Positions 1,848 to 38,112 of a stretch of 38,112 nt of DNA are shown one piece after another. The translations under genes were made by a program, and so were the position numbers. Each line of letters opens with the position of its first letter. The stretch's first letter is position 1. Below the pieces are notes generated by a model. The model did not search any database and was not told the origin of the DNA. It saw only the letters and a list, made by a program, of their open reading frames with translations. The stretch covers positions 1 through 38,112 of the IMG/VR virus record IMGVR_UViG_3300020197_002141, one strand, 5' to 3'. The DNA comes from a virus.

Positions 1848-2313
1848 TCTTATTTTCCTCTACGATAGTAGCTTTTATATTAAGAACATTGTTGTTCGCA
1901 TCCAAAAAATTATCCAAGTTTCTAATGCTTATGACGCTCCAATGCGGATCGTCTAAAGGAATGTTTTTCTGTTCTGTATAATAGAAGACTTCTATCATAT
2001 ATCTATAACTCTTTTCCTCAATCTGAGCGTCGGTTAAACCCACCAACATATCCTCGCAAATCTCTTTGCAAAGACGCAACGAATCCTTTTCGGTCGCACA
2101 ACCCAGCTTGCGCAAAACCTGAGTAGCAGCAATCGCCTTGTCTTTCTTGAGCAAATCAATTATATTTTTCTTCATCATGCCGTCTACAAATTCTGCAACG
2201 GCTGCGTACCGAGCCATCACTTGACCTTTCTTGGGCGTATGCATCCTTACATCAAAAAAATATTGCTCAAAATTAGTTTCGTCAATTACTACTTCATTGT
2301 TGGTTTCATTCAT
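1840..2313 (-). CDS. Unknown helical protein downstream of the polymerase half
   Basis: This is a 157-aa protein starting MNETNNEVVI. The ATG at 2313 is chosen over an in-frame ATG at 2331 because AGGA sits about 7 nt upstream. Visible features are FFDVRMHTPKKGQVMARYAAVAEFVDG, a helical block with KKDKAIAATQVLRKLGC, and an aromatic tail (FYYTEQKNIPLDDPHW). It overlaps both the end of the polymerase C-terminal half and the start of the next gene, so all three are probably made from one mRNA. A role as a polymerase accessory factor is conceivable from position only. No known motif is recognised. Confidence 0.78.
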   Translation of the reverse strand: MNETNNEVVIDETNFEQYFFDVRMHTPKKGQVMARYAAVAEFVDGMMKKNIIDLLKKDKAIAATQVLRKLGCATEKDSLRLCKEICEDMLVGLTDAQIEEKSYRYMIEVFYYTEQKNIPLDDPHWSVISIRNLDNFLDANNNVLNIKATIVEENKND

Positions 2314-5089
2314 TTTTTGATCCTGTAACATATTCTTCTAATTGTTCAAAAGTCTCATCCTCTGTTTGATATTTTTCAATTTCCACAACAGGAGGCTTCA
2401 TCAAGTAAACCCGGAAATCATTTTCTTTGTCTGGGTATCTCTTGATCCACGGCTTGCTGCTCCGGTTACTTTCCAAGGTATAAGTGTTATACGGATGTTC
2501 GGGAGCCTGCAATCTCAATCTAACTAAGTTACCGGGCTTCAAAATTCCGCCCCATCTTTCGTAATCATCTTCCCAAATATTAACTGTATTCAATTCGCTC
2601 ATTACATCTTCAATCTTCGTCCGATAGAAGATTGTCTTTGGCGAGCCGTCAGGCTTCTTAGTCTTAGATTCCGCTCTTGTGATAGAAATAATCTTCACTT
2701 CGACCGGACAAATAAAGTCTGGGTTCTGACGCAGGTTTTCAAAGGTGTTATTTGAGTTATGGTCTGGACTCTTTTCCAAATCATGAACCCAAGCAAAACC
2801 GTAATATTTGTTTTCACACTCTACGGGATCACGCAATTCTTCCAACAAAGACTTCTGGATCGGCCAAGAACTTGGATCGAAGTCCACCAATTTTGGAAAT
2901 ACTTGTGGCCCGATATTTTCATTCTTTTCAATTGCCTTTTGACGACGATTCCACAGCTTGCGTAATTCTTTCCAACGATTATATGTTCGAGTAATTGTAC
3001 CCATCCGATAATATCGGATGACTTCCTTTTCGATGATTACACCATCTTCTTCAATATGCTCAACCTCGACAATGAACTCGCCCTCAACAGGATCACGTTT
3101 CCTGTAAGCTCCGAGTTCTTCTGGCCCGCACTGCATCTCTTTAGTTGATTCAATATATTCATCTACATCGTATTTCTTTTTCCAATAATCTGCGTCAAAT
3201 GGTTGCTGTCCGGCCAGTTCACGAAGAGAGATGTTTTCACGGGGGCAAATAGTATGAAAATAATCATCATACTTATTCATAGACTTACCAAAACGCTTGA
3301 TCTTGTCTTCATACTTCTTGGTCTTATCACGGTAATATTCAACGAACTTCCAAAGCACAATCGGGTCTGCATCTTTGAAGCAACGCAAACCAATCAACGG
3401 CTTCAAAACATTGGCATCGGTGCCAAAACGATACAAGAAATCTTCAAATGATGCGTAGGGTTGACTCTCTACAATTCTCTGAGCAGGAGCTTCACCAATG
3501 CCCTTAACGTTGGAGAGGCCAAAGTAAATTTGATCGCCCACCAATTCAAAAGTAATCTTAGACTTGTTAATGTCTAGGCGGGCCAACTCGATGTTGTGAG
3601 CATGAGCCTCGACCTTGTATTCTTTGACCTTATCAGAAGTCTTCTCACAACTCAGAACCGCAGCGTAGAACTCATGCGGATAATGAGCCTTCAAATAAAG
3701 CAAACGTCCAGAGATATAAGTATAAGCCATTGCGTGGCTAAGATTGAAACCGTATTCGGCAAAAGCCTTGATTTGGTCCCAAAGACTCGTAGCTTCCTCG
3801 ATAGAGACGTTCAAATTCTTCACACCATTGCGAATAAACATCTCTTCAAATTTCTTGAAAGCCTCTTCCTTTTTCTTAGAAATAGCTTTACGCACCGCCT
3901 CACAATCCTTCAACGGGATTTCGCCCACCACGTTGAGGATTCTCATAATTTGCTCTTGATAAGTTAAAACCCCGTAAGTCGTCTCCAAAATGGGCTTTAC
4001 GAGCGGGTGCAGGTGAAACTCTTCCTGCCCTTTTTTGCGTTGAATATATCTCTCCTGCATTTTCATGCCGAGAGGACCAGGGCGATAAAGAGCAGTATAA
4101 GCGACCAAATCCTCAAATTGGGTAACGCCGCCAGCACGAACCATCTTTCGTATACCTTCACTGTCAAACTGAAAGATACACTTCAAATCGCCCTGATTTG
4201 CCATCGCTAAGGTTTTGGGATCATTGCGCCACTTGGCTACATCCGTCCAGTCCGGTTGGCCGGGCAAACCGCATATAGAAAGTAAATTATGCCGCTTTTT
4301 AACAAGCTCACAACAACGAGAAATTTGCAGCAAATTAGAAATAACCAGCAAGTCGAACTTAACAAGTCCAACGGGCTGCAAGTCCTGACCGTGTAGACCT
4401 TCTACCCAAGCCGATGCTTGAGGATTATTTTTTCGCTTAATGAGCGGAACTAGATCGTGCAAAGGAATAGACGCAATAATCAAACCACCAGCATGTTGGC
4501 CGGTGCCACGATTGCGATGCAACATTCTCCGAGCAGAATCAGCGACTTCTGGATATTTCTCGCAATATTTCTTCAATTCGGGATACAACTTCATGGCTGC
4601 ATCCCATGTGAGAGCTTTTCCTTCGTCGTCTTTTGCTTCAAGGTTCTTGGTTAATTCTTGAATTTCTTCACGAGGAACGCCGTGAACACGAGCCATATCC
4701 AATAGGGCGTTCTTGATGCCGAACGTGGTGTAATTACCGATATTGCAAACGAAATCTTCGCCAAAGGTTTTGGGTGCCCACTCGTGCTTAAGATAGTCAC
4801 GAGCCTCAGAAAGATAATCTACGTCAATATCAGGATATTCCCCATATTCACAATGGGGTTCATTCTCGATAGTATAATCTTTAGTTATCTTGAGAAGATA
4901 AACAACCAGAAGGTTGTTGACGTTCTTGGCGTATTTCTTGCCAATAAGATCGAGAAAGTAATCCCACTTACCTTTGGCTTCTATCTCGCCAAGCTCCCAG
5001 CGGAGTCTTTTTACATATCTTTGGTCATGTGCTAGACAAAAATCATTCAGGGCTTTTTGACAAAGCCCTGTGAGTTTTTCCATCGACAT
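2306..5089 (-). CDS. dnaE: DNA polymerase III alpha subunit, catalytic C-terminal half
   Basis: This 927-aa protein carries the polymerase catalytic parts of a C-family replicase. PDIDVDY (residues 86-92) supplies the first two palm aspartates and GLVKFDLL (D246) the third. Further family marks are TGQHAGGLIIA, TALYRPGPLG, TYQEQIM, FNLSHAMAYTYISGRLLYLKAHYP, the helix-hairpin-helix-like LSNVKGIGEAPAQ near 520, and a C-terminal OB-fold-like stretch (FICPVEVKIISITRAE). It lacks the PHP domain and the GPGRGS phosphate-binding motif, which are on a separate gene at 13243-14631. Its N-terminus (YVKRLRWELGEIEAKG, YFL) repeats a segment also present near the C-end of that other half. GGGGAGG lies 4 nt upstream of ATG. 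It probably replicates phage DNA as a two-chain polymerase. Confidence 0.93.
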   Translation of the reverse strand: MSMEKLTGLCQKALNDFCLAHDQRYVKRLRWELGEIEAKGKWDYFLDLIGKKYAKNVNNLLVVYLLKITKDYTIENEPHCEYGEYPDIDVDYLSEARDYLKHEWAPKTFGEDFVCNIGNYTTFGIKNALLDMARVHGVPREEIQELTKNLEAKDDEGKALTWDAAMKLYPELKKYCEKYPEVADSARRMLHRNRGTGQHAGGLIIASIPLHDLVPLIKRKNNPQASAWVEGLHGQDLQPVGLVKFDLLVISNLLQISRCCELVKKRHNLLSICGLPGQPDWTDVAKWRNDPKTLAMANQGDLKCIFQFDSEGIRKMVRAGGVTQFEDLVAYTALYRPGPLGMKMQERYIQRKKGQEEFHLHPLVKPILETTYGVLTYQEQIMRILNVVGEIPLKDCEAVRKAISKKKEEAFKKFEEMFIRNGVKNLNVSIEEATSLWDQIKAFAEYGFNLSHAMAYTYISGRLLYLKAHYPHEFYAAVLSCEKTSDKVKEYKVEAHAHNIELARLDINKSKITFELVGDQIYFGLSNVKGIGEAPAQRIVESQPYASFEDFLYRFGTDANVLKPLIGLRCFKDADPIVLWKFVEYYRDKTKKYEDKIKRFGKSMNKYDDYFHTICPRENISLRELAGQQPFDADYWKKKYDVDEYIESTKEMQCGPEELGAYRKRDPVEGEFIVEVEHIEEDGVIIEKEVIRYYRMGTITRTYNRWKELRKLWNRRQKAIEKNENIGPQVFPKLVDFDPSSWPIQKSLLEELRDPVECENKYYGFAWVHDLEKSPDHNSNNTFENLRQNPDFICPVEVKIISITRAESKTKKPDGSPKTIFYRTKIEDVMSELNTVNIWEDDYERWGGILKPGNLVRLRLQAPEHPYNTYTLESNRSSKPWIKRYPDKENDFRVYLMKPPVVEIEKYQTEDETFEQLEEYVTGSKNE

Positions 5090-10608: not shown

Positions 10609-11230
10609 TGGAGCCGAGGGGAGTCGATACTTCCCCATCTAATTTCTTAGATTAGTGGACTATCTTTTCACCATAGTAAAAACTTTAGGTGTCGGGCGCT
10701 CAAGCTGGTAATTAAGAGGGCTAAACCTCACCAGTAGTCTCTGCACCTTCCAGAAGTGTACTTCTGGCTTGGCTCAGGATTGCCCTCGACTTTACGTTAG
10801 GGTTTCCCTGAATTCACCCGATTATTCTCTATATCTTTTCAGATATAGACGGCTCGACTCACGAACCCCTGTCCATAAGTGTCGGCATTACAGTCTCTAC
10901 ACGCTTATCTCGTTGTTCGAGTGTCAGGTTTTGGGACTACTACGAGCAAAAGTCCGTCAACCTTATCGACCTATTTTCTCGTCTCAAGCTAAGTCGCCCA
11001 GCCCAAGACCAGCAAGATTTGGCGGTTGTCGGCAGTCGAGCGCTACTTGCATCGCCCTCTCAGCCAACCCTAACCTCTCGGTTAGGCAGCCAACGCTACC
11101 GGAGCAACGCTGGGGAAACGAACGATGTTATCGCCGTTTGAAGTTTTTGTCGATTTTTAGAGCGGCCTTTCGACAAACCGCTGCGTGCCACCATAACACT
11201 CATCCACCATGTCGAAACCTTTGCGGCCCC
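10609..11230 (-). ncRNA. ssrA: Transfer-messenger RNA (tmRNA) precursor containing a group I intron
   Basis: The 5' end GGGGCCGCAAAGGTTTCGAC is the hallmark tmRNA start. Its first seven bases pair with CGGCTCC at 10616-10610 to form the acceptor stem, followed by A at 10609; CCA is not encoded. The tag frame ends GCG TTG GCT GCC TAA (ALAA, stop at 11082-11084). Reading from GGC at 11135 gives the 17-residue tag GDNIVRFPSVAPVALAA; the exact resume codon is uncertain. A hairpin of CCTAACC and GGTTAGG follows the stop, as in tmRNA helix 5. The T arm is split by an intron; joined exons give AGGGG-TTCGACT-CCCCT, a perfect T stem and loop. Mature length is about 385 nt. It would rescue stalled ribosomes and tag nascent chains for proteolysis. 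Confidence 0.9.
10625..10861 (-). other. Group I intron in the tmRNA T loop
   Basis: This is a 237-nt intron without an ORF. Core elements appear in the correct order on the minus strand: P-like AATTCAGGGAAACCC (about 10800-10814), Q-like GCAATCCTGAGCCAAG (about 10768-10783), R-like GTGCAGAGACTACTGG (10731-10746) and S-like AAGATAGTCCAC (about 10655-10666). A peripheral hairpin CTATATCTGAAAAGATATAG is also visible. Removal between TTCG and ACT restores the canonical T loop TTCGACT and leaves a terminal G on the intron. The boundaries could slide by up to 3 nt because both sides carry TCG. The core resembles the small introns of cyanobacterial tRNA-Leu genes. Confidence 0.88.
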
Positions 11231-12340: not shown

Positions 12341-13246
12341 ATGATTAGTTTCAGTTTCGCAGAATGGCTTCAAATAATAGAGGCTGATAAAACAAAATCC
12401 GGGTTGGCCGGGTCAGACTTTACTGGATTATCTCTGGCAGACCGTATGGCCCAAGGCAGAGATATTGGTGAACCATTTATAAAGCGTCAACTGGCCATGC
12501 ACGGGATTAAAATTTCTGGTGTGCCCGCCAGAATGGATAAGACCCAAAAAGTTGACGGCATGTGGAACAACGACCCTATTCAAATTAAGCTCAGACGTAG
12601 CGGCATAGCTGGCAGAAATGATATTTCTTTTGAAGTATGCAGAAACCACGATAATATCTTCAAGTTATCCGACCAGCTTAGAAATGTAGATAAGCAGGGC
12701 AGAGATTACAAAGGGCAGGTAAAACACTACTTTGTAATGAACCAAGCAGAAACGGAAATTTATCACGTTCTTGCCAGTGCCATTAAAGCAGCAGCAAATG
12801 CCGCTATTGCGGAACTAGATGCTGATAGAAGAATGCAAGGTTATTTAACACGAGCATTTCCCGCAAGCAACGGAACCGAACTAAGACCGACTAGAGATAA
12901 AGACCCAGACAGTTTCACTCCATTCAAAGTCATGGCCTTTATCCCTGTCGATAGTGTTGTTCAAAAGGCTTATCCAATTCAGGATGAACAAACCGTACCA
13001 GCTATTCAGTCCGGCGCTCCTAACAATCCCCTTAGATATATAGCCCCGCCTGCCACAAAGAGCGATATGGAAATCGCTGCCGAGAAAGCACTTAGAACAG
13101 GACATGGCGAAATCACCATCAAGAGCAGCAACCCGAAGAATGTCGATAAAAAGATGAAAGAAATTCGGATGTTTGCTAACACGAATAAACTAAAGGTACA
13201 AGACAACGGGGATGGAACTGTAACCTTAATCAAATGGCCTATCTAA
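12341..13246 (+). CDS. Putative PD-(D/E)xK-type nuclease with N-terminal leader
   Basis: This 301-aa protein starts right after the previous stop (TAAATG). VDGMWNNDPIQIKLRRSG resembles the core of PD-(D/E)xK nucleases, with Asp in VDG, Q-x-K in IQIK, and a following strand DISFEVCRNHD. The first residues (MISFSFAEWLQIIE) carry the recurrent F-x-E-W-L leader, so it may be packaged with the acidic protein encoded upstream. The C-terminal 60 residues look like a separate small alpha/beta domain (GEITIKSSNPKNVDKKMKEI, then VQDNGDGTVTLIKWPI), reminiscent of single-stranded nucleic-acid-binding folds. The nuclease call rests on a short motif only. It converges with the polymerase N-half gene, overlapping by 4 nt. 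Confidence 0.7.
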   Translation: MISFSFAEWLQIIEADKTKSGLAGSDFTGLSLADRMAQGRDIGEPFIKRQLAMHGIKISGVPARMDKTQKVDGMWNNDPIQIKLRRSGIAGRNDISFEVCRNHDNIFKLSDQLRNVDKQGRDYKGQVKHYFVMNQAETEIYHVLASAIKAAANAAIAELDADRRMQGYLTRAFPASNGTELRPTRDKDPDSFTPFKVMAFIPVDSVVQKAYPIQDEQTVPAIQSGAPNNPLRYIAPPATKSDMEIAAEKALRTGHGEITIKSSNPKNVDKKMKEIRMFANTNKLKVQDNGDGTVTLIKWPI

Positions 13247-14631
13247 GCTACAAAAATCTCTTCTGGTGAAAGCGGGTCCATATTCTTTGGAAACTCTAAA
13301 ATAATGCTCCGTCCACCACGAGCCTCGCTCATAAACCGACTAAACAACAGACCTTCGTAAATTGGGTCAACATCTGTAATGCCCAAACAATAACAAGTCA
13401 AAGCACCAACGGCACTTCCACGACCCGGACCTACAGCCTGTGTGCCATCGCCACCCAACACATCACGACACCAACGGCGTGCTTCGTCCGTCATCATCTT
13501 CTGAATAAGGAAGTAGGTGCTGAACCCTTTGCGAGTAATCAAACTCAACTCTTCTTTGAGACGATTAACATATTCTCGATTTTGAGGAAGATTGCGTGCC
13601 TTGAAACCACGCATGACTTCTTCCTTCAACTTATCATCGGAATCTGGGAAAATAGGCAGCTTCAAAGAACGATCAAGTTGTACGCCCTTAGCACGCTCAC
13701 AAATCTTAACAGTATTTCTTTTAGCTTCACAGAACAACTCATAAGGAATAATATCCTTATAATCCTTGAACCATTTATCATTGATTTCTTCCTCAGATTT
13801 CATCCAAAGGTTTGCATCTTGCAACTCGAAAAAGTCGCTGATGCCTTCCTCTTTCATTTTGCGTTCAATATCAACAATGGTGTTCTTCGTTTGCACCATC
13901 AACATGAGACGCTGATATTTGCTATCTTCTTGTTTGCAATAATGACAATCATTGGTAATGATAAGCGGGAGTTTATATCGGTCATGAGCCTTCACAATAA
14001 AAGCGTCGTAAGGCTTTTGTTTATTGAAATCCAAGACCATCAATTCCAAAAAATAATGATCTTTGCCAAACATCTCGATGTATCGCTCAATCATAGCGAA
14101 TCCAGCTTCTTCGCCGCCTTTATCAAAGGCTTTGCCTACTTCGCTGTTGTAGCAACAAGACGTGAAAAATAAACCTTCTTTATACTTTAGAAGCTGTTCG
14201 TAATTGACTCTGGGCTTACGATAAAATCCCTTTGTCCAACCCCAAGAAGTAAGACGAACAAGGTTCTTATACCCTGTTTCGTTATAAGCGATAGCGAGTA
14301 AATGCGCACCAGATTGTTTGGCTTCGGCTGCGTCTGCTTCACTGAGGTCCAAAAGATATTTCTGCATCTCTTGCAATGAAGATATTGCAGGCTGCATTCG
14401 ATTGACGTAAAGTTCACATGCGAAAATGGGGGAGAGAGTGTCCTTCCCATGTTTATCACATATTTTTTCGCAAGCCTTAATTTGCCGTGGGACTGCGCCC
14501 AACATGCCGTGATCGCTAATCGTGAGGAATTTCTGATTGATTAGCGGGGCACGGGTGGCATATTCTTCCACCATGCCATACCCATCAAGAACACTGAAAT
14601 CCGTGTAGCTAATGAAGGTGGAGATGTTCAA
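13243..14631 (-). CDS. dnaE: DNA polymerase III alpha subunit, PHP/N-terminal half
   Basis: This 462-aa protein matches the N-terminal half of a C-family replicase. It has a PHP start FSVLDGYGMVEEYA, then LTISDHGMLGAVPRQI, GFYRKPRVNYEQLLKY, PLIITNDCHYCKQED, and the phosphate-binding GPGRGSAVGA (about 401-410) followed by LGITDVDP. It stops soon after; where the palm aspartates should be it reads RSIILEF. The catalytic acids are on the gene at 2306-5089. The only start giving this whole frame is TTG at 14631, and in this frame the metal-binding HxH at the beginning of PHP is replaced by ISY. A stronger start (ATG at 14653, GAGGAGG 6 nt upstream) opens another frame that reads EHLHLH and then stops; see findings. 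PHP metal binding is doubtful. Confidence 0.9.
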   Translation of the reverse strand: MNISTFISYTDFSVLDGYGMVEEYATRAPLINQKFLTISDHGMLGAVPRQIKACEKICDKHGKDTLSPIFACELYVNRMQPAISSLQEMQKYLLDLSEADAAEAKQSGAHLLAIAYNETGYKNLVRLTSWGWTKGFYRKPRVNYEQLLKYKEGLFFTSCCYNSEVGKAFDKGGEEAGFAMIERYIEMFGKDHYFLELMVLDFNKQKPYDAFIVKAHDRYKLPLIITNDCHYCKQEDSKYQRLMLMVQTKNTIVDIERKMKEEGISDFFELQDANLWMKSEEEINDKWFKDYKDIIPYELFCEAKRNTVKICERAKGVQLDRSLKLPIFPDSDDKLKEEVMRGFKARNLPQNREYVNRLKEELSLITRKGFSTYFLIQKMMTDEARRWCRDVLGGDGTQAVGPGRGSAVGALTCYCLGITDVDPIYEGLLFSRFMSEARGGRSIILEFPKNMDPLSPEEIFVA

Positions 14632-27113: not shown

Positions 27114-27120
27114 AAAAAAA

Positions 27121-27152
27121 CACTCCTAAAGAGAACCTTTTCTAAAGGAGTG
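27121..27152 (-). terminator. Terminator of the tasR-TIGR array transcript
   Basis: On the minus strand CACTCCT and AGGAGTG form the base of a stem, extended by AGAAAA with TTCTCT, and are followed by seven T residues. It lies 29 bases after the last array repeat, so it defines the 3' end of the array RNA. Its 3' arm also holds the AGGAG of the next gene (ATG at 27113). Confidence 0.88.
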
Positions 27153-27180
27153 TAATTTGAAAAATTTCGCACGGGGAGGT

Positions 27181-27630
27181 TGGGTTTAATCTATATAGTG
27201 GCTCGCATACTGCCAGTGGGTTTCATGCCGGGACTGGCTCGCAGGGAAGTCTTGGGTTTAACGTATCTATTGGCTCGCATGTATTCCGTGGATTTCATTT
27301 CGACCTTGGCTCGCAAACAAGCTGTGGATTTCATTTCCGGGGTGGCTCGCACATACGTGATGGGTTACAAGAATCGGATGGCTCGCACTTACCTGTTGGA
27401 TTTCACCGGCGCTCTGGCTCGCATCTCCACATTGGGTTTCACGCAGTATCTGGCTCGCATTTTGTCATTGGGTTTAACGTATCTATTGGCTCGCAGGCTT
27501 CGGATGGGTTTCAGCTTTCCTTTGGCTCGCACGAATACTATGGATTTCATTCGGGCGTTGGCTCGCACATTCGTGATGGGTTACAAGCATCGGATGGCTC
27601 GCACTTACCTGTTGGATTACACGCACCCGG
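27181..27630 (-). repeat. TIGR array: 25 alternating 9-nt repeats, 24 spacers of 9 nt
   Basis: The array is strictly periodic: 9-nt repeat, 9-nt spacer, with no length errors. Two repeat types alternate on the minus strand. TGCGAGCCA occurs 12 times without change. The other occurs 13 times as TGAAACCCA, TGAAATCCA, TTAAACCCA, TGTAACCCA or TGTAATCCA. The unit is therefore 36 nt with two different 9-nt spacers. Spacers in transcript order: ACAGGTAAG, TCCGATGCT, TCACGAATG, ACGCCCGAA, TAGTATTCG, AAGGAAAGC, TCCGAAGCC, ATAGATACG, ATGACAAAA, GATACTGCG, ATGTGGAGA, GAGCGCCGG, ACAGGTAAG, TCCGATTCT, TCACGTATG, CCCCGGAAA, CAGCTTGTT, AGGTCGAAA, CGGAATACA, ATAGATACG, AGACTTCCC, GTCCCGGCA, CTGGCAGTA, CTATATAGA. 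It follows tasR on the same strand, its first repeat and spacer boundary overlapping the tasR stop. By analogy with known TIGR systems it would be cut into 36-nt dual-spacer guides. Confidence 0.9.
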
Positions 27631-28603
27631 TTGGCTTATTCCAATTGGGCACTTCAATATAATCACAGTGACCACCATGTTCAAGAACCCAAGGCTGGGA
27701 AACCGACAATCCAGCTTGAGTTCTGGCGACAACCCAATAATGTTGCAAAAATATTTTAGCGGTCTTGCGAATTGCTCGGTTGTGTGCATGTCCAAGTGAA
27801 ATACCACGAGAAACTTGCAATGCTTTTTCTTTGTCGTAAATATCCCGATAGATTGGTGTTCTATGTTTAATAAACATATCTACAACATTGTACATCAACG
27901 AACGAATTTTGCCCGCCCAATTATTTGGCTGGCCTTTAGTTTTCTTTTGAACCTTACCATCATAAACACCATATCCTGAATAAGCCCATAATGCAGAAAC
28001 AGTATTGAATCGCTCAATATCACCAATTAAAGCGACCAGCCCACCGGCAATAGCAGGTCCGATGCCTTTGATCTTCAACAACCATTCATTATAAATAGGC
28101 TCTTCCTTGAGTTTTGTTTCAACGGCCTTTAATAGCTGTTTTTCGGCTTTTTCAAAAGTCTTAAAAAATTCACCCAATACAGGGTTATCTTCTTCGATAA
28201 ATAATCTGTTGTTTGTGCGAATGCGAACTTCTTGAAAATCTTTGAAAGTAGCATAAGCACAAGATAGAACTGAGGGAAGCCTAAACGGACGGAACAACTC
28301 CGGGCGGGTTTTCGACAGCGCCCAAATTACTCGCACATCATTTTCGTCAGTTTTTTCAAAGTCAGGCTTGTGATTTTTCTGCACTTGCTCTCGTGCTTTG
28401 GCGGTATCATTAGGCTTACAACGAAGAACTTTCGCACCAACATCCAAAAACTTTTTTGCGTATTTGGCGGGCATGTTCTCCGTCCAAATCACAATTTCAG
28501 GAGAAGGATCGGGCAAAGTTTTCGTAATCTTTTTGCCATCAGTCACAGCCAACTTGTCTGTTTTGTGTGACCAATCCACAGCATAATTTTTAACGTCGTC
28601 CAT
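27617..28603 (-). CDS. tasR: TasR: RuvC-Nop-like RNA-guided nuclease of a TIGR-Tas system
   Basis: The 328-aa protein starts MDDVKNYAVDWSHKTDKLAV; ATG at 28603 has GGAGG 5 nt upstream, whereas an upstream TTG would overlap that site. The N-terminal domain is RuvC/DEDD-like: D10 in YAVDWS, E42 in IVIWTENMP, and D86 and D89 in KTDENDVRVIWAL. A helical middle leads to the C-terminal domain with IKGIGPAIAGGLVALIGDIE and AYSGYGVYDGKVQKK, related to IS110 transposases and Nop proteins. The serine-bearing ISK-x-GN segment of IS110 enzymes is replaced by KGQPNNWAGKIRSLMY, which argues for nuclease rather than transposase. The array directly downstream supports TasR. Known TasR proteins cut DNA matched by both spacers of a guide RNA. 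TATAAATA precedes the gene. Confidence 0.87.
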   Translation of the reverse strand: MDDVKNYAVDWSHKTDKLAVTDGKKITKTLPDPSPEIVIWTENMPAKYAKKFLDVGAKVLRCKPNDTAKAREQVQKNHKPDFEKTDENDVRVIWALSKTRPELFRPFRLPSVLSCAYATFKDFQEVRIRTNNRLFIEEDNPVLGEFFKTFEKAEKQLLKAVETKLKEEPIYNEWLLKIKGIGPAIAGGLVALIGDIERFNTVSALWAYSGYGVYDGKVQKKTKGQPNNWAGKIRSLMYNVVDMFIKHRTPIYRDIYDKEKALQVSRGISLGHAHNRAIRKTAKIFLQHYWVVARTQAGLSVSQPWVLEHGGHCDYIEVPNWNKPTGCV

Positions 28604-28632
28604 AAATCCTCCAAGCAAAATATCGTTTTGAT

Positions 28633-34491: not shown

Positions 34492-35219
34492 TGGCTTGCA
34501 ATCCTCCATATTGCAACGGCACAGGTTCTTATTGTGGATGCAATTGTAACTGCTGCCCGCCAGATGGATGCTGCACCAAAGTGACTTTAACTTTTGAGTG
34601 CGGAACGTCGTACTCCATTTGGGAAGGGGGCAACCCAAATGAAGGTTGCGAGTGCAACCCCGAAGTATACCTAGGCGATCTCGGCATGTGGGCCGGATTA
34701 AAATTGGCAGAAGGACATATAGGAGTCCCATTCCCCAATTTTAATTCCGAAAACGAGGGCGACGACGAATTTGTCTGGTCCCTTCAGGGATGCTCCATAC
34801 CTTGTGAAACAGTAAAAGTACATGTAACCACATCGGGATGTTGCCTTCAATTATCTGGGGATGATAATGACTGGCTCAAAACCATCGTCGCTGTAGGCGG
34901 GGGCACTGTGACTGCGGTTTTCGACGACGGCTCGACACAAGGTACCCCCTACACACCTTGTGGCGTACAAATGACTTTTGTAAATGGAGCACAAGGTAGT
35001 TATGTTGTCGCAAACCCTGGCATTTGCGAAGACATAGACGTTGACCTTTCACCGGGCATGGCCTGCTGTGTTTGCTGTCTCGTAAAAACAGAATGTGCAA
35101 ATGCTCTATTCGCTCCAATTATTTTTAGACAAAAAAATATTCAAGCCGGTACAAATAAAAACTATCTCAACAAAAAAAATTTGTTGGAAAGGGTTCGTAA
35201 CTTACGCAGACGTAAGTGA
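34491..35219 (+). CDS. Cys-rich beta protein, possibly a virion surface protein
   Basis: This 242-aa protein starts MACNPPYCNGTGSYCGCNCN, a Cys/Gly/Asn-rich head (NCCPPDGCCTKVTLTFECG) followed by Cys-poor beta-type sequence (IVAVGGGTVTAVFDDGSTQG) and a second Cys cluster (GMACCVCCLVKTECANALF). The tail is basic (NYLNKKNLLERVRNLRRRK). There is no signal peptide. Repetitive beta content and Asn/Gly turns resemble decoration or fibre proteins, but no family is recognised. GAGG lies about 10 nt before ATG. It converges with the helicase gene, overlapping by 18 nt. Confidence 0.65.
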   Translation: MACNPPYCNGTGSYCGCNCNCCPPDGCCTKVTLTFECGTSYSIWEGGNPNEGCECNPEVYLGDLGMWAGLKLAEGHIGVPFPNFNSENEGDDEFVWSLQGCSIPCETVKVHVTTSGCCLQLSGDDNDWLKTIVAVGGGTVTAVFDDGSTQGTPYTPCGVQMTFVNGAQGSYVVANPGICEDIDVDLSPGMACCVCCLVKTECANALFAPIIFRQKNIQAGTNKNYLNKKNLLERVRNLRRRK

Positions 35220-38112
35220 CAATTTATTTGCTTCATCCAACATTGCCTTAATAACATCTTGTTTCAGATTGAGCAGCTTGCGAAGTTTTTCTTCTGAAAC
35301 ATCTGCGAACTCTTCCGCAGACTTAATTCCATAATCAAACAACTTCTTTGCCCGAACCTTTCCGATATTCGGAATGCGACAAAGATTGACCAAATATGCC
35401 GGTACACCGTTACGGATTCTATCTTCAAGCGTATAAAGATAGCCTGATTGTTCCCATTTGCCACTCATTGAATCAAGTGCCAATAACACCTGCGAAAGTC
35501 TGGGATAATCAAACTGGAAATTTCTTTGTATGGCTGCCAGATTCGCACTGTTATTACCCGATAACAAATTGAAGTAACAGTAGCCAGCTTTGATGACGGG
35601 ATCGGGATAGGTGTAATTGACTCCCGAAAGATTTCTGACCCTGTTGGCGAACAAGCTCATTTCTTCTTTCTCGGCTCTCGATACAATATTTGAACGATTC
35701 GTATCTGTATTTGCCAAAGCCATTGCCAAGAAATAGTCATTGTCTTGCTGATTATTCGCAAACAATCGCCAGAAGTTATTTCTCAAATCGGCAACGTCGA
35801 ATGGCGAAAAATAAAACATGCTGGCAATCATGCCAACAGACGTAATTTTCCAAGTGTCATCTTCAAACTTGAGACAACCCTTATCCTTCAACAATTCCAA
35901 AGTATCATCTACCACACGTTCATGCAAATTTTTGTCTTGGAAGTAAGCCAACGACCTTTCATACCAGCGGTGAACATCGTCATTGGTCTTGATATATCCG
36001 TGATGAATTTCGCTGACCAAGTGGAAGGCCAATACCTTGTGATGTTCTCCTTCCCTCTCCAATAGCTGCGATTCAATCTTTTGTGGTTTCTGTAGTTTCT
36101 TTCGCCACAATTCTTCTTGGGATTCGGGGACCAGAATATACGCATCGCCAGCCGGATCAATTCCAAGACGGCCAGAGCGTCCAACCATTTGAGTGATGTT
36201 GTATGTTTCGACTTCTTGAATACCTCTGTGAACACCAAGAATAATCACCCGGCGAGCAGGAAGGTTCAGCCCCCAAGCTAATGTTGGAGTGGCCACAATG
36301 ACTCTCAATTTGGGATCAGTACGGAAACTACGTTCGAGATTAACTCGACTTTCTTTGTCTAAATCAGCATTATGAAATTCTGCTTTGATCCCGGCCCCTC
36401 GCAGGGAAGTCTTCATCATCTCGCCGGTACGCTTAGTATGTGCAAATACAAGGAACTTATCATCTGAATACCAGTCGCCAATAATTTCCAATGCCTTCCC
36501 AACTTTGTTTTTTTCGATTTGATCGTATCGTCTGGGCGAGTCATCGTATATTTCGTAGTGAATATTCAATGGCACTGGACGATATTCAGAATTTAGAACA
36601 TAGGTTTGCTTCTTGGTCAAAGAATATGAAACCCACTCTGCAATTTGATCGACGTTCGGCATAGTAGCTGAGAGCAAAACGATCCTTGCTTTGGGATTGA
36701 TTTCCGTAAACTTCATCAATCCAACTTCCAAGTGATCGCCACGACCCGGCACCGTCAAAAGGTGGCAATTGTGAACCAAAACACCATCAGCAAAAAAATT
36801 GTTGTGATCTTCAATTTCTAAATCACAACACCATGATTCCTCTGAATCCAAATCCTCGTTCGTTCGTACATTTTGTCCCATTTGTGACGACATTCCTTGT
36901 TCTTGCACAAAATAACATGACGTGGCATATGAATATCTCGACGATTCGCAAGAAATTTCTGACCACACATTGAACAGAATATTTGCTCCATCTTCGGCAA
37001 CACTTTGTACTCCATACTTGGAATCACAAAATGTCGAATTAAATTTTGAAATTTGTCTCTCCCCTCCGCTGAGAATCGAATTTGCCAATATTTTCTCGTC
37101 AAATATGGATTGGATGGCACTTTCCACCTTTTTTGAAGCCAATCCGACAACATCTTCACTTCCATTCGAGAAAATCCTTCTGTGTGTATTGACATTTGAC
37201 TTGAACCTTGACTCCCATCGTCCATGTACCATACTGCCAACGCAATCGGATCGTTGATCTCTTCTAGCCAACGAGAGTTCACCGTCTTCTTCCCATTTGG
37301 GTAACATAAAGCATGAATTTTCAATATCTCTTCTGTCGAAAGAGTATTGAATCGGCAAACCTCTTTGCCGTAACCTCCGTTTGGCTTTATTTTGGGCGGC
37401 GTGCCAACCAGTCTCTTCAACTCGTTGTACTTCCACTCTACAAAAGCCCTTTGGACAGACGATTGTTGAATCCTTAATCTCGCCGATTTTCCGTGGGGTA
37501 GCCGAGAGATTGATCCGTCTCCTAGCAACGTACCCAAAATCACCTGTCTCTCTCTTTGAGTTAGTTCTTCGCACATATAAAATATCACCAAACTTTATGT
37601 TTTTAGAAGGAACATAACCACGACCTTCACACCAAACCAAATGATTGTGTGTCACAGAAATGTTTCCACCTTCATAATATATAGTGCGCCACCTTCTTTT
37701 TAAGAGTTTTTTCTGTCTTGCTACAATTTTTTTGTATTCGACCAACCCTGAGTTATGATTAAATGAAGCTACTTTCACATCAAGATTTTGGTCAATTATT
37801 TCCCCAATTGAAATTAGACCTTTATCTGTATCAATGAGAGCAGATGGAGGCAAGCACTCGTCAACCACCAAAGTTCCAACATCGAGCAGCCAGTTGTTTT
37901 GTTCAGATTTGAAATTTCGGGAGCGGTGATTAAGCATTTCAGAAGTCATGATAATCATATCAGCTTCTGAAAGTTCTTTGGATCGCTCTTTAGTGAGTCG
38001 ATAATCGCCCGTACAAATAGAAATCTTCAAGTCTTTGAAGTGATATTGAAGATCAGTCCATTGGTCAATTTTCTCTTGAGCCAAGGCACGGAGCGGAGCG
38101 AGAAACATTCCC
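35202..38112 (-). CDS. Hel308/Ski2-like superfamily 2 helicase precursor with intein (5' end outside window)
   Basis: The visible part is about 969 residues; the N-terminus with Walker A lies beyond the right edge. Motif Ia is FLAPLRALAQEK. Walker B is LVVDE-C...HN-CHLL, so excision of the intein restores VVDECHLL. Motif III is LLSATMPN. Motifs V and VI are TPTLAWGLNLPARRVII and QMVGRSGRLG. A winged-helix-like region follows (ERVVDDTLELLKDKGCLKF), and the C-terminal helix-hairpin-helix is LCRIPNIGKVRAKKLFDYGI. This order is that of Hel308/Brr2-type 3'-5' helicases acting on stalled forks or recombination intermediates. It probably serves phage replication or repair. Splicing is required for ATPase activity because the intein interrupts the DECH box. 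Confidence 0.92.
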   Translation of the reverse strand, partial: GMFLAPLRALAQEKIDQWTDLQYHFKDLKISICTGDYRLTKERSKELSEADMIIMTSEMLNHRSRNFKSEQNNWLLDVGTLVVDECLPPSALIDTDKGLISIGEIIDQNLDVKVASFNHNSGLVEYKKIVARQKKLLKRRWRTIYYEGGNISVTHNHLVWCEGRGYVPSKNIKFGDILYVRRTNSKRETGDFGYVARRRINLSATPRKIGEIKDSTIVCPKGFCRVEVQRVEETGWHAAQNKAKRRLRQRGLPIQYSFDRRDIENSCFMLPKWEEDGELSLARRDQRSDCVGSMVHGRWESRFKSNVNTHRRIFSNGSEDVVGLASKKVESAIQSIFDEKILANSILSGGERQISKFNSTFCDSKYGVQSVAEDGANILFNVWSEISCESSRYSYATSCYFVQEQGMSSQMGQNVRTNEDLDSEESWCCDLEIEDHNNFFADGVLVHNCHLLTVPGRGDHLEVGLMKFTEINPKARIVLLSATMPNVDQIAEWVSYSLTKKQTYVLNSEYRPVPLNIHYEIYDDSPRRYDQIEKNKVGKALEIIGDWYSDDKFLVFAHTKRTGEMMKTSLRGAGIKAEFHNADLDKESRVNLERSFRTDPKLRVIVATPTLAWGLNLPARRVIILGVHRGIQEVETYNITQMVGRSGRLGIDPAGDAYILVPESQEELWRKKLQKPQKIESQLLEREGEHHKVLAFHLVSEIHHGYIKTNDDVHRWYERSLAYFQDKNLHERVVDDTLELLKDKGCLKFEDDTWKITSVGMIASMFYFSPFDVADLRNNFWRLFANNQQDNDYFLAMALANTDTNRSNIVSRAEKEEMSLFANRVRNLSGVNYTYPDPVIKAGYCYFNLLSGNNSANLAAIQRNFQFDYPRLSQVLLALDSMSGKWEQSGYLYTLEDRIRNGVPAYLVNLCRIPNIGKVRAKKLFDYGIKSAEEFADVSEEKLRKLLNLKQDVIKAMLDEANKLSLTSA
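36768..37856 (-). other. Intein in the helicase DECH box
   Basis: This 363-aa intein starts CLPPSALIDTDKGLISIGEI and ends DHNNFFADGVLVHN with Cys at +1. Block B is GGNISVTHNHLVWC. The C-terminal blocks are CCDLEIEDHNNFFADG and VLVHN. Splicing blocks A and B (residues 1-95) and F and G (341-363) are normal. The central 245 residues show no endonuclease motif in this frame. They are the alternative-frame reading of a LAGLIDADG gene encoded at 36818-37576, yet contain no stop codon. Confidence 0.9.
36818..37576 (-). CDS. LAGLIDADG homing endonuclease overprinted on the helicase intein
   Basis: This 252-aa frame lies one base out of phase with the intein and starts MCEELTQRER, with GGTGAT 7 nt upstream. 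LAGLIDADG motifs are VILGTLLGDGS (residues 12-22) and IALAVWYMDDGS (111-122); the acids are intact. The spacing and the SMSIHTEGFSRMEVKMLSDW block match intron- and intein-type endonucleases. A C-terminal zinc-ribbon-like end follows (FCSMCGQKF, then CKNKECRHKW). The stop codon (TAG at 36818) lies just as the intein C-terminal splicing block begins in the other frame. It is probably translated independently from the same mRNA and would promote homing of the intein. Confidence 0.85.
   Translation of the reverse strand: MCEELTQRERQVILGTLLGDGSISRLPHGKSARLRIQQSSVQRAFVEWKYNELKRLVGTPPKIKPNGGYGKEVCRFNTLSTEEILKIHALCYPNGKKTVNSRWLEEINDPIALAVWYMDDGSQGSSQMSIHTEGFSRMEVKMLSDWLQKRWKVPSNPYLTRKYWQIRFSAEGRDKFQNLIRHFVIPSMEYKVLPKMEQIFCSMCGQKFLANRRDIHMPRHVILCKNKECRHKWDKMYERTRIWIQRNHGVVI

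Follow-up and report, generated by a model that had tools for sequence, protein, structure and literature searches.

The closest described relative of the locus studied here is the TIGR-TasR system of the Thermoproteota archaeon LB_CRA_1, in which the protein TaTasR (PDB 9mty) is accompanied by an array of dual 9-nt repeats with UG...CCA, 9-nt spacers and 36-nt units that lies downstream of tasR, has truncated edges and is followed by a terminator (PMC12045711). How TIGR arrays change was stated as an open question in the founding paper (PMC12045711), and no later study of this subject was found in our literature search. In the present work, we analyzed the IMG/VR virus record IMGVR_UViG_3300020197_002141 over its 38,112 bases (hereafter the window), which harbors a previously undescribed member of the TIGR-TasR systems as defined in PMC12045711. 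The locus type itself is already known; the novelty lies in the comparative evidence on array change, which makes it likely that these arrays are remodelled internally, by duplication and by gain, loss and reordering of units, with later point changes or a new spacer. The locus consists of the following parts.

27617..28618, minus strand: tasR-like gene, a 333-residue open reading frame (ORF) from TTG, with the likely start at an ATG near 28603
27167..27636, minus strand: TIGR array, 13 units of 36 nt with a truncated edge repeat at each end
27114..27153, minus strand: terminator-like hairpin with its T-run, following the final truncated edge, as read from the sequence
27469-27477, 27253-27261 and 27181-27189, minus strand: loop repeats TTAAACCCA of units 5, 11 and 13, with UU for UG, that is, a box D without its G

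The window TasR contains a RuvC domain and a Nop/IS110-type RNA-binding domain. It matched 9mty over residues 7-328 (phmmer, E = 1.3e-127) with 59% identity across 322 residues, and all four acidic catalytic residues (D15, E47, D91 and D94) are kept and have acidic counterparts in TaTasR, D11 among them. In Pfam only its IS110-type C-terminal domain was matched (Transposase_20), and PHROGs labels the protein a transposase. The array is placed immediately downstream of tasR, the TAA stop codon of which (27617-27619) sits within the first loop repeat. Each 36-nt unit is made up of the edge repeat TGCGAGCCA, spacer A, a loop repeat and spacer B. The edge repeat is present in 12 full copies, all identical, while five forms of the loop repeat occur (TGTAATCCA, TGTAACCCA, TGAAATCCA, TGAAACCCA and TTAAACCCA). 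Every edge, and every loop other than the three TTAAACCCA copies, opens with the box D motif UG and closes with the box C motif CCA. The locus thus combines a Nop-domain protein bearing an N-terminal RuvC and acidic catalytic residues, alternating edge and loop repeats of the 8-12 nt class with 9-nt spacers, and truncated edge repeats at both array ends followed by a terminator, the hairpin position agreeing with the TIGR array end as described in PMC12045711. It differs from its archaeal counterpart in being found in a virus record and in the three UU-bearing loops; the window array also contains a recognizable internal duplication. By analogy with TaTasR, the array transcript would be processed to 36-nt tigRNAs. 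Spacers A and B of each tigRNA would pair with opposite strands of a target, which the TasR dimer would be directed to cut. Among the window proteins chosen for comparison with Pfam and PHROGs, none matched Cas1 or Cas2.

Units were numbered 1-13 starting at the tasR side. An earlier note on this DNA, made from the sequence alone, had reported that spacers 1-3 (B1, A2 and B2 in our numbering) recur as spacers 13-15 (B7, A8 and B8) with single changes in two of them and with the same loop variant TGTAACCCA, that ATAGATACG occurs twice, each time followed by TTAAACCCA, and that one repeat is invariant in 12 copies whereas the other has five forms. All of this proved exact, and the array was correctly named a TIGR array; the extent of 27181-27630 given there does cover array sequence, but the true span is slightly wider, from about 27636 down to 27167. 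B1 and B7 are identical (both ACAGGTAAG), as are A5 and A11 (both ATAGATACG, with loop TTAAACCCA next each time), while A2 and A8 (TCCGATGCT and TCCGATTCT) and B2 and B8 (TCACGAATG and TCACGTATG) differ by one change each. The changes in units 2 and 8 affect position 7 of spacer A and position 6 of spacer B, outside seed positions 4-5 (the seed being derived from PMC12045711). The partners of all four matches are separated by precisely six units (216 nt), and same-slot spacer pairs with at most one mismatch were found at this offset and at no other. Since every recurring spacer lies six units from its counterpart, the two recurrences listed separately before belong to a single register, which comprises the following features.

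27415..27630, minus strand: register copy 1, units 1-6 (A1 to edge 6), defined by same-slot spacer matches at the six-unit offset
27199..27414, minus strand: register copy 2, units 7-12 (A7 to edge 12), defined in the same way
27568..27612, minus strand: best-kept stretch of copy 1, B1 ACAGGTAAG, edge, A2 TCCGATGCT, loop TGTAACCCA, B2 TCACGAATG
27352..27396, minus strand: best-kept stretch of copy 2, B7 ACAGGTAAG, edge, A8 TCCGATTCT, loop TGTAACCCA, B8 TCACGTATG
27469..27486, minus strand: A5 and loop 5, ATAGATACG TTAAACCCA
27253..27270, minus strand: A11 and loop 11, ATAGATACG TTAAACCCA, six units from A5

Permutation with the A and B orders shuffled independently gave p = 0.002 for the register. 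Identity over spacers and loops was 63.5% at offset 6 versus 39-54% at other offsets, loop agreement across all seven pairs at offset 6 gave p = 0.017, and local self-alignment of the copies yielded about 80% over 212 nt. The spacers unmatched at this offset were 30% identical, close to the background of 26%, and are therefore unrelated rather than half-drifted; judged from their sequences, this looks like replacement or module exchange and not like gradual drift. The history of the window array may have involved duplication of a block spanning loops 1 to 5, within which a pair of units was exchanged (3-4 versus 9-10), or else a full six-unit tandem copy in which single spacers were later replaced.

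For comparison, three pattern scans of IMG/VR and a TasR search were used to collect at least 193 loci with at least 243 arrays (general parser). Once near-identical records had been discarded, the comparison covered about 1,585 units in 120 phages. Internal duplicates were far in excess of what unrelated phages predict: within phages, 23 unit pairs had at most 3 mismatches in the 18 spacer nucleotides (0.01 expected) and 36 had at most 4 (0.18 expected), the latter coming from 24 of the 120 phages. The loops were identical in 28 of these 36 pairs, compared with 13.2 expected from random pairs of the same phages. Half matches, in which one spacer is identical and its partner different, numbered 19 within phages against 0.2 expected (about 90 times chance), but 1 between related phages, where 0.24 were expected. 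With one giant-array phage left out, reused identical spacers kept the same slot in 41 cases and occupied opposite slots in 1. Independent parallels to the window were seen in L184, where units 3-4 appear again as 8-9 with one change, in L071 (units 2/16 and 6/18) and L102 (units 2/8), and in L033, which has three tandem copies. The duplication in the window is thus real and typical of the group. In a separate observation, the 72-kb phage contig IMGVR_UViG_3300036863_000086 (L005, L026, L040 and L043) carries about 120 TIGR units in several arrays, with 30 spacer pairs one mismatch apart against 7 expected.

Related phages (for instance, the families L029, L032, L161, L178 and L192, and L085, L090, L102, L106, L125, L171 and L196) share whole units. 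Across all groups compared, 127 unit pairs were shared versus 1 half pair. The arrays of L029 and L032 are collinear with two internal two-unit gaps, those of L029 and L161 are reordered (units 6, 8 and 9 of the former correspond to units 7, 6 and 5 of the latter), and unit 10 of L192 is likely a chimera, in which the A spacer of one L029 unit would be combined with the loop and B spacer of another, the outcome expected of a deletion between units. Sharing showed no end polarity: the shared fraction per array fifth was 0.21, 0.23, 0.24, 0.22 and 0.20 (chi-square p = 0.91), and first and last units were shared equally (0.16 each). Polarized spacer addition at the leader end, as in CRISPR, was accordingly not seen. 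As regards tempo, L169 and L192 have identical arrays (0/461) despite 3.6% flank divergence (P = 6e-8), and so do L085 and L113 (0/641) with flanks diverged by 1.0% (P = 0.002), whereas in other pairs, with flank divergence of 4-7%, the arrays differ at about a quarter of aligned positions or, as in L166 and L187, have no unit in common. Identical arrays beside diverged flanks, followed by large array differences, look like stepwise change of arrays that had been held constant or recently exchanged, unlike steady drift; the identical arrays could also stem from recent recombination.

The nearest relative of the window is L002 (record G001), which overlaps it across 15.17 kb, carries the same array duplication, and was the only other phage in which the window's own cassettes were found. 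Outside the array, the two records differ by one single-nucleotide polymorphism in about 14.7 kb, and a further difference lies two bases from the contig end, beyond the 15.17-kb alignment. Inside the array there are two differences.

27460..27468, minus strand: spacer B5, ATGACAAAA in the window and AGGCCGATGC in L002/G001, the whole spacer being replaced
27424..27432, minus strand: spacer B6, ATGTGGAGA in the window and ATGTGGAAA in L002, with a substitution at 27425

The array, which makes up 3% of the length, therefore holds two of the three events (p = 0.003). B5 also differs from its register counterpart B11, and neither the window nor L002 contains another copy of the new L002 spacer AGGCCGATGC. 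This one pair of metagenomic assemblies suggests an in-place guide replacement. The wider idea that TIGR phages possess a means of replacing single 9-nt guides in place between intact repeats, one half of the dual guide being kept, to which the excess of half matches within phages also points, seems doubtful at present.

Internal remodelling is, in our judgment, the probable explanation of these data. Array segments would be duplicated with the repeat register kept, whole units (spacer A, loop and spacer B together) would be gained, lost and reordered, and the copies would then diverge by point changes or by receiving a new spacer beside an old one. One such event in the window would leave the six-unit register, with B1/B7, A2/A8, B2/B8 and A5/A11 as its traces, and recombination or replication slippage at matching repeats would be its cause. 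Several points count against this explanation. The register test is based on four spacer pairs and gave the weaker figure of p = 0.017 when whole units were shuffled. Loop agreement without units 2/8 and 5/11 fell within chance (p = 0.37), so the earlier statement that loop forms travel with particular spacers holds for those two unit pairs and not beyond them. The sample, gathered by exact repeat patterns from among the matches listed, is not random; its units were parsed automatically, and the relatedness groups were set by hand from BLAST identity. Finally, no donor for the new L002 spacer was present in the loci collected for comparison, and no recombination mechanism was observed.

Among the alternatives, the idea that duplication was followed by spacer drift tracking variation in a common target family, which the earlier note had also raised, appears improbable. 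Its point changes are real: duplicates changed at single positions do exist, and both changes in units 2/8 share one codon phase in the inferred target. According to the cut rule, cleavage leaves 8-nt 3' overhangs and occurs on the 5' side of the base that pairs with spacer position 5 (PMC12045711); from this rule we derived a target that reads B and then the reverse-complemented A, with a gap of 0-2. Such targets were in no clear excess over shuffled-pair controls in TIGR-phage DNA, first in about 0.5 Mb and later in 1.5 Mb. Used as a degenerate target, units 2/8 matched viral contigs twice, each time with a gap of 2 nt, and gave 12 matches in genome contigs, which were scattered over unrelated bacteria with no concentration. 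Codon-phase concordance was 47% (15/32, p = 0.09) for variant pairs with at most 3 differences, but 34% (41/121) for all variant pairs, as expected by chance. Moreover, arrays remained unchanged while flanks diverged by 1-4% (L169/L192 and L085/L113), and the near-background identity of the unmatched register spacers likewise speaks against drift. Target tracking was thus not supported, as no target family was found by the searches and no significant codon phase emerged at the variable positions. A search for the target of the most conserved TasA-family unit, GAAGGACAT/TCCTTACGA, returned 21 records representing about five independent sequences. Three of the records (L203, L207 and L219) have an exact gap-free 18-nt match to the inferred target at an apparent ORF start (ATGAAGGACATTCGTAAGGAT); this is not above chance level and could be chance. 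An origin of the spacers in the own genome was rejected as a candidate, the count of 104 against about 83 expected (shuffles 66-96) being a weak signal. No homologues were found in plasmids.

Repeated sampling of one target, in which recurring spacers would be independent acquisitions of the same or a variant sequence, is very improbable. Near-identical spacers do stand at scattered positions in one giant-array phage, but A/B-swapped tigRNAs are functional in vitro (PMC12045711), so re-acquisition should use both slots; the 41-to-1 retention of slots points to copying in register and not to repeated capture. Repeat variants, moreover, accompany the duplicated units, and all recurrences in the window have one offset. 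CRISPR-like addition of new units at one array end, for which no support was found, an occasional common first unit in one family (unit 1 of L161, L178 and L192) notwithstanding, has an even slighter chance of being correct, given the even distribution of shared units, the equal sharing of first and last units, and the frequency of internal duplications. The earlier proposal of growth by segmental duplication rather than acquisition at one end therefore agrees with the six-unit register, with near-duplicate units far above chance in the 120 phages, and with the comparison of related arrays, where internal duplications were found and ordered addition at one end without them was not seen. As to an artefact of joining short reads wrongly across the repeats, arrays of 36-nt units are readily misassembled, but a single faulty assembly does not explain a duplication present in both the window and L002; similar duplications occur in unrelated phages, and several near-identical record pairs have fully identical arrays, so that an assembly artefact is scarcely credible.

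Beyond TasR, the arrays of TIGR-TasA phages (the L029 and L085 families and Microcystis phage Mvi-JY20) resemble that of the window in edge/loop layout and in the type of remodelling, while their Tas protein, unlike that of the window, is without a RuvC domain. In Mvi-JY20, an isolated Microcystis phage (PP438412.1; L059, about 3630-3980), the Tas-like protein is annotated as hypothetical and the TIGR-type array is mostly without an annotated feature; an identical 37-nt sequence precedes both the Tas-like gene and the post-array region. In mycobacteriophage ConceptII (MH230876.1; L058, 2150-2490), a run of inverted repeats of about 50 nt in an intergenic region adjoins a Tas-like gene and a 'Cas4 exonuclease' gene and resembles a TIGR stem-loop array; a similar Tas-like protein occurs in 76 mycobacteriophage records. 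As these arrays look to be of the stem-loop type, they were left out of the dual-repeat comparison.

Other features of the window were noted as well. At 10636-11230 (minus strand), a match to a transfer-messenger RNA (tmRNA) gene overlaps a group I intron match, and the intron may interrupt the tmRNA. ORFs at 2306-5089 and 13243-14631 (both minus strand) match the C-terminal and N-terminal parts, respectively, of the phrog_405 DNA polymerase and, lying about 8 kb apart, represent a split polymerase gene. A helicase ORF at 35202-38108 (minus strand) has an intein-like insert, the intein match being under the Pfam cut-off.

In CRISPR arrays, duplication and loss of units through recombination between repeats are known. 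Deletions in them have been treated with SpacerPlacer, and new spacers enter chiefly at the leader end (PMC11472070). TIGR arrays are repeat-spacer arrays too, but differ from CRISPR in the absence of end polarity, in two alternating repeats, in two spacers per guide and in the frequency of reordering. The present data provide a first comparative picture of TIGR array change, in which segments are duplicated in register, units are exchanged and reordered, neither end is favoured, and the A and B slots stay separate. Array change can thereby be put to the test with series of strains and with phage hosts in the laboratory. Because remodelling is internal and without polarity, the order of TIGR spacers, unlike that of CRISPR spacers, would not be readable as a record of time.
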